Below, one piece after another: positions 6,556 through 56,590 of a stretch of DNA of 64,000 nucleotides (positions within the stretch are counted from its first letter, which is position 1; every line of letters begins with the position of its first letter). This stretch comes from Phyllobacterium myrsinacearum (GTDB lineage Bacteria; Pseudomonadota; Alphaproteobacteria; Rhizobiales; Rhizobiaceae): the NCBI RefSeq assembly GCF_002980555.1, contig NZ_PVBT01000003.1, forward strand, positions 682,001 to 746,000. Reading direction: 5' to 3'. A model generated the notes under the pieces. It saw only the letters and a list, made by a program, of their open reading frames with translations, was not told the DNA's origin and did no database searches. Made by a program: the position numbers and the translations under genes.

Positions 6556-7671
6556 ATGCGGAAAACTGTAGCACTCTTTCTCTCGGGCTGCGTGGTGTCA
6601 ACCACTGCGGGTCTGGCAACGGCGGCACTTGCGGGTCCGAACATCACTGTGGATGTGGGTACCGGCGAGATTTTGTCGCAGGAAGATGCGTTCCAGCGCT
6701 GGTATCCGGCGTCCCTCACCAAGCTGGTGACGGCCTATGTGGCCTTCCGCATGATCGAATCAGGCCAGGTCACACTGGACACGCCCATCAAGATGACGGC
6801 CCGTGCGGCAAAGGAGCCGCCGAGCAAAATGGGCTACAAGCCCGGCTCGCAGCTGACGCTGGATAACGCGTTCAAGATTATCATGGTCAAATCGGCCAAT
6901 GACGTGGCGATGGCGATTGGCGAGACCCTCGGCGGCTCATCGGAAAAATTCGCCGTGCTGATGAATGCCGAAGCCAAGCGCCTGGGCATGTACGGCTCGC
7001 ATTTCGTCAATCCCAATGGCTTGCATTCGGACGATCACTATACGACAGCGCGCGACCTGGCGATCCTGACGGTGCAGATGCGGCGTGAATTCCCGCAATA
7101 CATGCATTATTTCGATATTGAGGCGATCGATTCCGGCAACAAGATCCAGGCCAATTTCAATGCGCTGATTGGCCGGTTCCAGGGCGCAAACGGTATGAAG
7201 ACCGGCTTTGTCTGCCCGTCCGGTTTCAATCTCGTCGGCTCGGCCACCCGCGATGGCCGCAACATCATCACCGTCGTTCTGGGCGAGTTGAAGCAGCAGG
7301 GGCGCGCGACGAAGGCGGCCGAGCTGCTGGCAAAGGGGTTTGAGACCCGCGGAACCGGCAAGACACTGGAGGCCCTGCAGCCCTATGGCCCGGCCGCGCG
7401 CGATGTCGCCGTCAACATGCGTCCGACCGTCTGCTCCAAGGAGGCGGCCGCCTCCGACAGCTGGGACGGCAAGGACGCAGAAGGCCATATCATCCAGGGC
7501 TCGCCCTACATGTACCGGATGGATCATCAACCGCAGGCGGAACTCGTTGCCCTGCTTCCCTCCAAGACCAATGCGAAGGGCAAGGATATGAGCCGCATCC
7601 CGATCCCGATTCCGCGGCCCGACCGCGCCTCGATCACCGATGCGGCCAACACGGCAAAAGCAGTGAATTAA
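6556..7671 (+). CDS. dacC: D-alanyl-D-alanine carboxypeptidase (S11 family penicillin-binding protein)
   Basis: From the ATG at 6556 the protein has 371 residues and begins with a signal peptide (MRKTVALFLSGCV, cleavage near ALAG). The three active-site motifs of a low-molecular-mass PBP are present: SLTK at 53-56, SAN at 113-115 and KTG at 215-217. It should trim the terminal D-Ala from peptidoglycan pentapeptides in the periplasm. An upstream in-frame start at 6475 would put 27 polar residues before the signal peptide and is less likely. The C-terminus is short and Pro-rich, with no clear amphipathic membrane anchor. The CobW gene follows after 25 bases and may be co-transcribed. The exact dac paralogue is uncertain. 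Confidence 0.9.
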   Translation: MRKTVALFLSGCVVSTTAGLATAALAGPNITVDVGTGEILSQEDAFQRWYPASLTKLVTAYVAFRMIESGQVTLDTPIKMTARAAKEPPSKMGYKPGSQLTLDNAFKIIMVKSANDVAMAIGETLGGSSEKFAVLMNAEAKRLGMYGSHFVNPNGLHSDDHYTTARDLAILTVQMRREFPQYMHYFDIEAIDSGNKIQANFNALIGRFQGANGMKTGFVCPSGFNLVGSATRDGRNIITVVLGELKQQGRATKAAELLAKGFETRGTGKTLEALQPYGPAARDVAVNMRPTVCSKEAAASDSWDGKDAEGHIIQGSPYMYRMDHQPQAELVALLPSKTNAKGKDMSRIPIPIPRPDRASITDAANTAKAVN

Positions 7672-7696
7672 CAACAACGCACGATAGGATGTCATC

Positions 7697-8884
7697 ATGA
7701 GTGGCCTCAACGCCCCCATTCCGGTTTCTGTACTCACGGGATTTCTGGGGTCGGGCAAGACCACCTTGCTGAACCGCCTGCTGAAAGATCCGGCGCTGGC
7801 CGACACGGCCGTCATCATCAATGAATTCGGCGATGTCGGCATCGACCATCTCCTGGTGGAGACGGCGAGCGAAGGCGTCATCGAGCTTTCCTACGGCTGC
7901 CTGTGCTGCACGGTCCGCGGCGAACTCGTCGATACGCTGGCCGACCTGATCGACCGTCTGCAGACCGGCCAGTTGAAGCGGCTCAAGCGGGTCATCATCG
8001 AAACGACCGGGCTGGCCGACCCTGCGCCCGTCCTGCATGCGATCATGGGGCATCCCGTGCTGCTGCAGGCGTTCCGGGTGGACGGGGTGATCACGACGGT
8101 CGATGCGGTCAACGGCATGGCAACGCTCGATGCGCATGAGGAAGCGGTCAAGCAGGCGGCGGTCGCCGACCGGATCGTCGTGACCAAGACCGACATGCCG
8201 CAAGCGGCGCAGGGTCTGCCGGCGCTGCGGGCCCGGCTGGCCGCGCTTAATCCCGGTGCCGATATCATCGATGTCGGCGATGCGCGCACCGGCTATGCCG
8301 CGCTGTTCGAGTGCGGTGTCTACAATCCCGGGACCAAAACCATCGATGTGCAGCGCTGGCTGAAGGCGGAAGCCTATCGCGATCGTGAGCATGAACGGGA
8401 GGAAGCCGAGCATCATGCGCATCATCATCATGGCCATGACGGGCATGATGATCACGACCATGACCACCATGACCACCATCACCACCATCACCACGATGTG
8501 AACCGCCATGATGCGGCGATACGGTCGTTTTCCCTCACGCATGATGCGCCGGTACCGCGCGCCGGTTTCGAGATGTTTCTCGATCTGCTGCGTTCGGCCC
8601 ATGGCGAAAAACTCCTGCGCATGAAAGGCATCGTGCAGCTGGCCGATGATCCGGAGCGTCCGCTGGTCATTCACGGCGTGCAGCAGATTTTTCATCCGCC
8701 AGCGCGGCTTGCCGCATGGCCGGAAGGGCGGCGCGAGACGCGGCTGGTTCTGATCGTCAAGGATCTGCCGGAAAGCTATGTGACACAGCTGTTCAGCGCC
8801 TTCCTCAACGAACCGAAGGTCGATACGCCGGACCGTGCGGCGCTGTTCGACAATCCGCTGGCAATCCCGGGATTGAAAGTCTAG
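7697..8884 (+). CDS. CobW/COG0523 family GTPase metallochaperone with His-rich loop
   Basis: This 395-residue protein is a G3E P-loop GTPase. It has Walker A GFLGSGKTT (15-23), the metal-binding CXCC motif in YGCLCCTV (Cys68, Cys70, Cys71), and a C-terminal CobW_C domain from about residue 275. Between the two domains, at roughly 233-273, is a long His/Asp stretch with many HHHH and HDH runs, expected to bind Zn or Co. Related proteins insert or deliver metals to client enzymes under metal shortage. There is no space for its own promoter after the carboxypeptidase gene and I see no Zur-type box, so it may be transcribed with it. The 3' end overlaps the convergent TusA-like gene by four bases. 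Confidence 0.9.
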   Translation: MSGLNAPIPVSVLTGFLGSGKTTLLNRLLKDPALADTAVIINEFGDVGIDHLLVETASEGVIELSYGCLCCTVRGELVDTLADLIDRLQTGQLKRLKRVIIETTGLADPAPVLHAIMGHPVLLQAFRVDGVITTVDAVNGMATLDAHEEAVKQAAVADRIVVTKTDMPQAAQGLPALRARLAALNPGADIIDVGDARTGYAALFECGVYNPGTKTIDVQRWLKAEAYRDREHEREEAEHHAHHHHGHDGHDDHDHDHHDHHHHHHHDVNRHDAAIRSFSLTHDAPVPRAGFEMFLDLLRSAHGEKLLRMKGIVQLADDPERPLVIHGVQQIFHPPARLAAWPEGRRETRLVLIVKDLPESYVTQLFSAFLNEPKVDTPDRAALFDNPLAIPGLKV

Positions 8885-15908: not shown

Positions 15909-16002
15909 GAAGTTCCTCCGCCTGTGGATCGTGCAACCAAGAGGAAGCGACCAATACGGGGAAAGCCGGCGGGCGGCAATCAGGCAGGGCCTGAAAAAAC
16001 AA

Positions 16003-16032
16003 CACCCACCGCGGGAGGAGGTGCGGTGGGTG
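16003..16032 (-). ncRNA. Cuckoo/CcsR-type anti-SD hairpin sRNA, third copy, with terminator
   Basis: On the minus strand a perfect 10-bp stem (arms 16023-16032 and 16003-16012) encloses the loop ACCTCCTCCC. A T-rich run, TTGTTTTTTC, follows at 15993-16002, so this copy also looks like the rho-independent terminator of the whole DUF1127 transcript. The CCUCCUCCC loop is the mark of the cuckoo RNA family of alphaproteobacteria, to which Rhodobacter CcsR1-4 belong. Confidence 0.8.
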
Positions 16033-16041
16033 CTATTTGTA

Positions 16042-16072
16042 AAGGCCGGCTGGGAGGAGGAGTGCCGGCCTT
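16042..16072 (-). ncRNA. Cuckoo/CcsR-type anti-SD hairpin sRNA, second copy
   Basis: A perfect 9-bp stem, AAGGCCGGC/GCCGGCCTT (arms 16064-16072 and 16042-16050), encloses the 13-nt loop ACTCCTCCTCCCA on the minus strand. The loop again contains CCUCCUCCC. It lies 9 bases from the third hairpin and 3 bases from the first, so the three are a tight array in the 3' UTR of the DUF1127 gene. Confidence 0.78.
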
Positions 16073-16075
16073 CGA

Positions 16076-16110
16076 ACGTTCGGAACCTGGGAGGAGGTCA
16101 TCCCGAACGT
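16076..16110 (-). ncRNA. Cuckoo/CcsR-type anti-SD hairpin sRNA, first copy
   Basis: A perfect 8-bp stem, ACGTTCGG/CCGAACGT (arms 16103-16110 and 16076-16083), encloses a 19-nt loop with CCTCCTCCC on the minus strand. It starts 15 bases after the DUF1127 stop codon. The stem sequence differs fully from the other two copies while the loop core is the same, which is what selection on the loop would produce. Confidence 0.75.
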
Positions 16111-16125
16111 CAACTTTGAATTCGA

Positions 16126-29910: not shown

Positions 29911-30533
29911 ATCGCCGGCGCGAAGATGGCGAGAATGGCGCCATAGGGCACCAGCATCACCACGGCCATGACAATCTTCACCATCAGGTCGCCGAAGCCG
30001 AGCGACATCCACAGCGGGATATCCTTGCCGAGGAAAGGCACCAGCATGGCGAGGGATGAGTCGGCACGCCCGGTTGCCAGATCGATCCAGGCAAACTGCG
30101 CGGCAAAGGCGATGGAGAAAAACAGCAGCGTATCCAGCAGCGAACCGAACACGGCGGACGCGAACGGCGCCTTCCACCAGGTCAGCTGGCGCAGCTTGCC
30201 GAAGACGGTAACATCCAGCAGCTGGGCGCAGAGAAAGGCCGAGCCCGAGGCGATGGCGATGCGCGGGGTTGCCAGCCAGACTGACAGAATAACCGCGATG
30301 ACGAACCCGGCATAGACGACCTTGCGTGCGAATTGCGGTCCGAAACGGCGGTTCGACAGGTCATTGACGAGGAAGGCGACGGGGTAGGTGAAGGCGCCGT
30401 AGGTCAGGATTTCGCCCAGTCCGAGATGGTTGAACGGGTACTGCACCAGGATATTGGACGCAGCCACGACCAGGCACATGGCGAGGACGGGGAAAATGAA
30501 ATCCGACAGGGAATAGGCGCGCGAAAGCGGCAT
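29883..30533 (-). CDS. yhhQ: Queuosine precursor transporter (YhhQ/VUT family)
   Basis: The 216-residue protein has about six transmembrane segments and the family signatures FTYPVAFLVNDLSNRRFGP and RIAIASGSAFLCAQLLDVTVF. YhhQ imports preQ0/preQ1 or queuine for tRNA queuosine modification. The start at 30533 is preceded by AGGA, and the bases just upstream can fold as a preQ1-I-like riboswitch, which fits this function. A start at 30590 would run through that element and is unlikely. It lies downstream of rpmB on the same strand, separated by a hairpin. Its 3' end overlaps the convergent esterase gene by 28 bases. Confidence 0.9.
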   Translation of the reverse strand: MPLSRAYSLSDFIFPVLAMCLVVAASNILVQYPFNHLGLGEILTYGAFTYPVAFLVNDLSNRRFGPQFARKVVYAGFVIAVILSVWLATPRIAIASGSAFLCAQLLDVTVFGKLRQLTWWKAPFASAVFGSLLDTLLFFSIAFAAQFAWIDLATGRADSSLAMLVPFLGKDIPLWMSLGFGDLMVKIVMAVVMLVPYGAILAIFAPAIYSANRNSR

Positions 30534-30559
30534 TTTTTTATCCTGGGTAATGGAACCAG
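30531..30559 (-). promoter_or_regulatory. preQ1-I-like riboswitch in the yhhQ leader
   Basis: On the minus strand, P1 is CTGG (30559-30556) with CCAG (30546-30543). The loop between is TTCCATTAC, beginning with U and ending with C, the positions that contact preQ1 in known class-I aptamers. The A-rich tail GATAAAAAA leads to ATG (30533-30531). CAU in the loop (30552-30550) is complementary to the AUG start codon, giving a pseudoknot P2. The order GGUUC..ACCC..AUAAAAAA follows the Bacillus queC preQ1-I aptamer closely. The Shine-Dalgarno AGGA overlaps P1 and the start codon is in P2, so ligand binding would block translation. The motif is short, so chance cannot be excluded, but the gene downstream transports queuosine precursors. 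Confidence 0.62.
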
Positions 30560-30567
30560 CAACAATA

Positions 30568-30587
30568 AGGCCAGCATGCGCTGGCCT
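30568..30587 (-). terminator. Hairpin between rpmB and yhhQ
   Basis: AGGCCAGC (30568-30575) and GCTGGCCT (30580-30587) form an 8-bp perfect stem with a 4-nt loop. On the minus strand it is followed by TATTGTT, a poor U tract, so termination after rpmB is probably partial. Read-through would bring transcription to yhhQ. Confidence 0.6.
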
Positions 30588-30621
30588 CAAGCGATTAGGA
30601 TGTCAGAACCGTGCTGGCCGG

Positions 30622-30921
30622 TCAGGCAGCAACAGGGGCTTCAGCCGACTTCTTGGCAATCTGGCGCTTCAGGAGACGGGCGCGCTGCGACAGCTCCTTC
30701 TCGTCAGCCTTGGCCAGGAATGCATCCAGGCCACCGCGATGTTCAACGGTGCGCAGGGCATGGGCCGAAACGCGCAGACGGAAGCTCTGACCGAGAGCTT
30801 CGGAGATCAGCGTAACGTGGCAGAGGTTCGGCAGGAAGCGGCGGCGCGTTCTGTTGTTCGCGTGGCTCACATTGTTGCCGTACTGTACCGATTTAGCGGT
30901 CAATTCACATGTGCGGGACAT
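30622..30921 (-). CDS. rpmB: 50S ribosomal protein L28
   Basis: This 99-residue protein matches alphaproteobacterial L28: [29 protein letters not shown] at the start, then [21 protein letters not shown] and a basic C-terminal tail ending SAEAPVAA. It binds 23S rRNA in the large subunit. It has a strong promoter upstream at 31034-31062. yhhQ follows on the same strand after a hairpin and a probable riboswitch. Confidence 0.97.
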
Positions 30922-31033
30922 TGGGTCTCACCTTCAAAATTCATTACCTATAGCCCGAATGTTCTTGTTACCATCACACGTCGCCGTGCAGCGGCGCGCA
31001 TATCGGACAGGCGGCCTATTGGGAAGTCGCGTT

Positions 31034-56404: not shown

Positions 56405-56590
56405 GTGAAAAATGATCCGCCGGCATCGGTTCCAGATTACAGCTCCGACATCACGAGAGAGCCGGTAACTCTCGCCAGAGGGGCCCGGTGCTGCAATTCT
56501 GCCTCAATTGGGGAGGGGCAGGGATCAATGCAAGGGTTTGACGGAAATAAATAATCTGCGGCCGCCGGATCGAACGGCCTCTTGCCCCCG

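Follow-up and report, generated by a model that had tools for sequence, protein, structure and literature searches.

What does the short segment directly before yhhQ in Phyllobacterium myrsinacearum do, and could it draw the start codon of this gene into an aptamer for a queuosine precursor? The window analyzed here, a stretch of 64,000 nucleotides, carries on its minus strand a 29-mer (30559..30531) that reads CUGG-UUCCAUUAC-CCAG-GAUAAAAAA-AUG and has the yhhQ start codon as its 3' end. The element is a candidate preQ1-I riboswitch with type III as its nearest subtype, and in our judgment it probably acts as a translational OFF switch in which helix P2 captures the start codon.

The element and its genomic setting

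The original prediction described a CUGG/CCAG P1, a loop with U first and C last, an A-rich tail, and a CAU in the loop complementary to AUG. All these parts are present in the sequence. The span then given, 30531..30562, holds a real element with three surplus bases on its 5' side, and the true span is 30531..30559 (Table 1). P1 had also been said to cover the Shine-Dalgarno sequence, which holds for one half of the AGGA and fails for the rest.

Table 1. Parts of the yhhQ leader element and neighboring features (window coordinates)
Feature	Position	Strand	Basis
yhhQ / QPTR queuosine precursor transporter, 216 aa	29883..30533	-	ORF; above TIGR00697 cut-off
rpmB, ribosomal protein L28, upstream gene	30622..30921	-	profile match
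Terminator-like hairpin 3' of rpmB, end 6 nt 5' of P1	30566..30589	-	hairpin and promoter scan of the region
Whole preQ1-I-like pseudoknot (predicted), 29 nt, CUGGUUCCAUUACCCAGGAUAAAAAAAUG	30531..30559	-	sequence, conservation in relatives, architecture scan
P1 5' strand CUGG (C30559-G30556)	30556..30559	-	sequence; pooled covariation
Loop UUCCAUUAC (U30555 UCCAUUA C30547)	30547..30555	-	sequence, alignment
P2 5' strand CAU, putative anti-start-codon	30550..30552	-	leader scans, pooled pairing
P1 3' strand CCAG (C30546-G30543); AGGA starts with its final two bases	30543..30546	-	sequence
Likely Shine-Dalgarno AGGA, 7 nt 5' of AUG, half within P1	30541..30544	-	sequence; inference
L3, GAU plus six A (from G30542)	30534..30542	-	sequence, alignment
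P2 3' strand, the yhhQ AUG (A30533 U30532 G30531)	30531..30533	-	sequence; in-frame count

The element begins 62 nt past the end of rpmB on the minus strand and, as in type III, is located before yhhQ. The downstream gene had been said to import queuosine precursors, and its ORF indeed passes the NCBIfam TIGR00697 cut-off. P1 follows a terminator-like hairpin at a distance of 6 nt, and no promoter was found in 30480..31000 with a simple sigma-70 scan; transcription of yhhQ may therefore depend on read-through from rpmB. Inspection by eye of Ochrobactrum-type relatives revealed a hairpin with a T-run ending about 1 nt 5' of the pseudoknot. Ordinary Rfam matches elsewhere in the window mark an ar14 sRNA (15997..16115, minus strand) and a terC RNA (56436..56496, minus strand).

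Conservation and covariation among yhhQ leaders

A scan for type III architecture that left the P2 sequence free (P1 of 4 bp, a UUC-xyz-N-AC loop, and AAAA followed by the complement of xyz) matches the window once, at this site, and has no match in 150 simulated order-1 Markov windows. A looser version again finds this site as the sole match in the window, and 0.013 matches per simulated window. When up to three mismatches are allowed, the pattern CTGGTKSCATNNCCCAGGNTAAAAAAATG is present in 343 of 394 Rhizobiaceae genomes and in 95 of 109 genera; the reversed control has 0 among the matches listed. A draw from the whole class has the pattern in 1 of 385 genomes, namely the window's own, and that genome holds a single site at this threshold. 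Conservation of the leader, which had been proposed as a check, is therefore family-wide, and in relatives it is the 29-mer that is kept while its flanks differ. Outside the family, 40 yhhQ leaders from the rest of the order yielded no CAU/AUG copy and one unrelated chance match (L108).

According to hand-joined counts, the motif occurs in 128 of the 143 family genomes that bear yhhQ and in none of the eight that lack the gene. The remaining 15 yhhQ-bearing genomes comprise seven recognizable variants, with a 10-nt loop (G022, G066, G079, G102, G158), a CCGG/CCGG P1 (G025) or a longer tail (G121), one degenerate copy (G130; L160/L291), and seven genomes where the motif was not found (G024, G026, G076, G101, G110, G112, G143), five of which have queA. 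It is also absent from five further genomes of genus g82 with yhhQ and queA (G706, G765, G818, G894, G922). The motif is dispensable, since several genomes with both genes are without it.

At the level of loci, where some genomes were taken twice (L003/L051 and others) and counts are not genome counts, the best-matching stretch has nine mismatches or fewer in 123 of 144 family loci, giving 29 distinct strings, some of them counted one base out of register. Nearly fixed are the U after P1 (28 of 29 strings), the CAU, the specificity C before the P1 3' strand (28 of 29), the G's of the Shine-Dalgarno sequence and the A-run, so that the hallmarks of preQ1-I, including an A-rich L3, are kept; loop positions 6, 7, 11, and 12 and tail position 19 are the freest. 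Relatives often have UG in place of the UU of type III, followed by G or A, and some have UC or CC for AC. The tail measures 8-10 nt except in L167/L306, where it is longer. This copy, from genus g102, keeps P1 and CAU/AUG and has no AGGA, which implies a different ribosome-binding site. The AUG of the motif is in the yhhQ frame at 135 of the 136 loci having both, while the YhhQ N-terminus varies in length from -6 to +48 amino acids, which ties the motif to the start codon and not to the coding sequence.

Compensatory changes had been proposed as a further check, and for P1 they are present: both strands change together to CUAG/CUAG in L099 and L298 and to CCGG/CCGG in L280, among family loci selected by a regular expression that required CAU and AUG. 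For a wider comparison, 55 non-alphaproteobacterial leaders were used, from E. coli K-12 and 54 yhhQ loci of the same phylum and another class. The scan applied to them, which accepted only a paired P2 and favored loops with UCCCU, found UUCCCUN(A/G/C)C with AGG in 49 of the 55. One type III leader, L252 (UUCUCUCAC, with UUCUCU), has AGA; in it the outer pair of P2 has changed with compensation. By eye L230 has a 10-nt loop, the match in L262 is spurious, and the scan gave nothing for L240, L242, and L243.

The pooled set consists of 29 distinct 24-mers (13 non-alpha, 16 alpha) with 9-nt loops and the linker removed; the 10-nt-loop rows (L154, L230, L279, L281, L282, L284, L303, L304), the spurious L262, the degenerate L160/L291 and the motif-less loci were left out. 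Paired cells reach 96.6% in P1, for which the alpha regular expression demanded closeness to CUGG/CCAG, and 100% in P2 (29 of 29 rows), for which pairing was required of the non-alpha rows and not of the alpha rows. These figures agree, at the sequence level, with the H-type pseudoknot of preQ1-I, in which the 3' tail pairs with the loop of the P1 hairpin. Changes on both sides occur in five of seven pairs, a figure reached in 2 of 500 shuffles, and in three of the four pairs of P1. The covariation score is 0.461 against 0.143 for shuffled rows (0 of 500 as high) and at most 0.111 when the pairing is slid. One of five measures, the number of further pair types, is not above the shuffles (8 against 7.1; 184 of 500 as high).

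CAU and AUG are invariant in the family rows examined, so covariation in P2 appears only when gammaproteobacterial leaders are brought in, which pair CCU with AGG or, in one case, UCU with AGA; it is essentially one difference between the alpha and gamma clades plus L252. Swaps of the start codon that would prove P2 (GUG with CAC, UUG with CAA) were not seen in the family by a scan allowing any paired triplet, nor in rows with the loop triplet and first codon letter left free, nor among the listed family matches with up to three mismatches.

Covariance models were also applied. Rfam cmscan, at gathering and permissive thresholds, gave no PreQ1 (RF00522) match at the site, and the E. coli type III leader is likewise unmatched by any family; the negative score, which the original prediction would have taken as adverse, is judged uninformative because this proven leader scores nothing either. 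The best RF00522 score in the genome, 15.3 bits, lies elsewhere and below the cut-off. A gammaproteobacterial model was built from nine leaders trimmed to equal length, since a 32-row MAFFT alignment misplaced the tails and was set aside. This model, whose sequences are similar and which has no P2 term, ranks the window site sixth among nine chance-level matches, at 6.4 bits (E 6.7), and it scores E. coli at 33.7, L252 at 28.5, and L230 at 24.2 bits. Because of this low score, we treat the site as a candidate preQ1-I riboswitch closest to type III, a subtype that the original prediction did not name, and not as a member, formal type III membership not being established.

A second leader with the layout of a preQ1-I H-type pseudoknot lies directly before yhhQ in 9 of 10 other alphaproteobacterial leaders (L102, L269-L276; the miss is L277). 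Its typical string is CAAG-U..CCG..AC-CUUG-UCAAAA-CGG, with a compensated P1 (CAAG/CUUG, CAUG/CAUG or AAAG/CUUU), a U..CCG..C loop, an A-rich tail and a P2 of CCG/CGG. The hosts (family f74, and the Rhodobacteraceae MAG that carries L102) are probably Rhodobacteraceae. This pattern has no match on either strand in 40 loci of other families, and Rfam PreQ1 has none on L269-L277. The second leader would fit the view that yhhQ genes of alphaproteobacteria often carry preQ1-I-like leaders. In family f6 (L103, L104, L107, L132), a small hairpin, SCGG-UCNNNUG-CCGS, was seen by eye 25-30 nt before the putative yhhQ start and may be another leader element.

Ligand, mechanism and competing explanations

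The queuosine pathway offers indications about the ligand. The genome has both QueF and QueA. Elsewhere in the family, the motif occurs together with queA and without a QueF match in G021 (85% complete), G027, G033, and G035, which favors preQ1 over preQ0. Genus g91 is probably Bartonella, for which loss of queuosine genes has been reported (PMC11570991). Both g91 genomes with queA (G823, G863) keep the motif, and all five without a full queA (G110, G712, G770, G899, G927) keep yhhQ and are without it; G770 has a short sub-threshold queA match. L295, from this genus, looks like a decayed copy of the motif. In genus g7, the queA-bearing G130 has the degenerate copy, G026 lacks queA and has yhhQ with no motif, and both queA and yhhQ are missing from G726 and G782. 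Against a strict link with queA stand the genomes that have queA and yhhQ and no motif, in g82 (G101, G706, G765, G818, G894, G922) and outside it (G024, G076, G112, G143). The association with queA loss may be a single loss event, and L160/L291 and L295, in reduced genomes, may show the switch being lost along with the queuosine pathway.

Mutants of Sinorhizobium meliloti in queC and queF are rescued by 300 nM preQ1, so a member of the Rhizobiaceae can take preQ1 up; loss of queF, queC or tgt impairs symbiosis in this species (PMC3568095). In E. coli, preQ0 and preQ1 are both taken up by YhhQ (PMC5372724, PMC10622847). In two genomes of other families, a second YhhQ-like match, 27-33% identical, is located beside queF (G173:C22:8148-8474 with queF at 7663-7890 of the same contig, G173:C22:7663-7890; G186:C105:58039-58347 with queF at G186:C105:57572-57802).

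Under the mechanism proposed here, P1 would be a weak hairpin holding half of the Shine-Dalgarno sequence; by itself it has a predicted energy of -2.1 kcal/mol, so the ligand-free state should be open. A nearest-neighbor model, which represents neither pseudoknots nor ligand, favors a different hairpin for the UGGCAU variant and yields a minimum-energy fold without P1 for a 122-nt segment of the window. preQ1 would enter a pocket between P1 and P2, with C30547 as its pairing partner and U30555 and A30534 as the bases that read it. By sequence correspondence, U30555 and C30547 should be equivalent to U6 and to the specificity base C14 of the E. coli crystal numbering, and A30534 to the ligand-reading A27. 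In the bound state, the CAU of the loop would pair with AUG and the poly-A tail would occupy the groove of P1. The start-codon base A30533, paired with U30550, would form the ceiling of the ligand pocket, so that the first base of the start codon would lie inside it. By closing P2, the ligand would hide the AUG from the ribosome, and the preQ1/preQ0 importer would therefore not be made while preQ1 is plentiful. The central claim of the original prediction, a putative preQ1-I pseudoknot with P2 on the start codon, gains support from family conservation and P1 covariation.

The same pseudoknot, with the same capture of the start codon, might respond to preQ0 or queuine. We consider this unlikely, even though YhhQ transports preQ0 and preQ1 in E. 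coli (PMC5372724, PMC10622847) and in B. henselae also moves queuine, at high concentration (PMC11570991), and the L1 bases of many relatives are unlike those of type III. For preQ0, the retention of the motif in the four genomes without a QueF match, where preQ0 should be unusable, speaks against it, as does the approximately 138-fold preference of the E. coli type III aptamer for preQ1 over preQ0 (PMC10622847); for queuine, the motif is absent from the g91 genomes without full queA, where queuine use is expected. Somewhat less likely still is recognition by a protein in place of a metabolite, either a translational repressor binding the hairpin or a transcription factor with CTGG-N9-CCAG as its operator. 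This string is a dyad, which the CTAG/CTAG and CCGG/CCGG changes would preserve, but an operator leaves unexplained why CAU is almost invariant, why the C next to the P1 3' strand and the A-run are fixed relative to the start codon, and why the loop agrees with that of type III base by base; the genome also offers only one site at up to three mismatches.

That the 29-mer is a conserved ribosome-binding region and no switch appears very improbable. AGGA and AUG are at good spacing, as such a region requires; however, CUGG, CAU and the C before the P1 3' strand, which initiation does not need, are about as conserved as the Shine-Dalgarno sequence, and the 40 yhhQ leaders from the order's other families have no CAU/AUG copy. 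The main doubt first attached to the element, that a short motif may resemble an aptamer by chance, is countered by its presence in 343 of 394 family genomes and its absence from 150 simulated windows, and chance likeness in one sequence can be given hardly any weight.

If the preQ1-I reading is true, preQ1 riboswitches extend to most of a family that includes root-nodule symbionts and animal pathogens, in which the Rfam PreQ1 model has nothing above cut-off in the one genome tested. It would also mean that one compensated base pair can shift a riboswitch from the Shine-Dalgarno sequence to the start codon, would predict feedback control of queuosine-precursor uptake in rhizobia, and would provide a very small natural aptamer, useful for folding and translation studies. 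Among the publications listed in a search of titles and abstract openings, none dealt with a preQ1 switch of Rhizobiaceae or with a preQ1-I P2 that contains a start codon. Type III was reportedly defined by McCown in 2014, and that set may list such sequences. The available parts of a 2024 review contain neither "start codon" nor "AUG" (PMC11625349), and those of the Bartonella paper do not contain "riboswitch" (PMC11570991). A 2013 regulon survey, as far as its accessible text goes, places preQ1 in one or two proteobacterial lineages (PMC3766115). For Brucella abortus, an excerpt of another work has one plus in a table row, and its text links the species to the glycine riboswitch (PMC9495176).

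Comparison with known systems

The closest relative is the type III preQ1-I riboswitch of E. coli, which lies upstream of yhhQ, binds preQ1 and has been crystallized (PMC10622847; PDB 8fza, as named in PMC11625349). Its loop is numbered U6 U7 C8 C9 C10 U11, position 12, A13 C14, and its P2 pairs are U11-A28, C10-G29, and C9-G30 (PMC10622847). Both elements share the gene, a 9-nt loop UU...AC that is rich in pyrimidines, the poly-A tail, the H-type layout and, in P2, a U-A inner pair and a C-G outer pair. The loop is UUCCCUNAC there and UUCCAUNAC here, differing at the middle base of P2, where A replaces the third C, and at the free position 12. The core therefore agrees with type III apart from this pair, which is A-U here and C-G there. 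Unlike type III, where AAGG (the Shine-Dalgarno sequence) supplies the 3' strand of P2 through its AGG, the element has the AUG start codon in that place and half of its Shine-Dalgarno sequence in P1. Its tail is 8-10 nt (except L167/L306), whereas gamma tails vary widely, L1 is often UG in Rhizobiaceae, and the host belongs to this family, whereas type III has been called almost exclusively gammaproteobacterial (PMC10622847). Size does not distinguish the two, since gamma leaders include cores of 27-31 nt with a P1 of 3-5 bp; a description of the element as the smallest natural aptamer of its class was dropped for this reason.

We lean toward viewing the element as a fourth preQ1-I subtype, in which the initiation codon would serve as both P2 strand and pocket roof, with the ligand stacked under the A of AUG. 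It would have arisen from type III, or converged with it, through one compensated swap (C-G to A-U) that moves P2 from the Shine-Dalgarno sequence to the start codon. Together with the separate CCG/CGG yhhQ leader of the probable Rhodobacteraceae, this would make two undescribed alphaproteobacterial forms.

The type II aptamer of Thermoanaerobacter tengcongensis (Tte) has a longer loop with purines. It resembles the element in its H-type pseudoknot, in the AC before the P1 3' strand and in translational control, but there it is the Shine-Dalgarno sequence that is partly occluded (PMC11625349). The add adenine riboswitch of Vibrio vulnificus also has a paired AUG in its OFF state (PMC5847336); there, however, the Shine-Dalgarno sequence and AUG are helical without ligand and are freed by it, whereas here the AUG would belong to the aptamer and would be trapped by the ligand. 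The SAM-II riboswitch of alphaproteobacteria is likewise an H-type pseudoknot with a translation signal inside the aptamer (PMC10907184), although it is larger, has another ligand and encloses the ribosome-binding site, whereas the yhhQ element would enclose the start codon.
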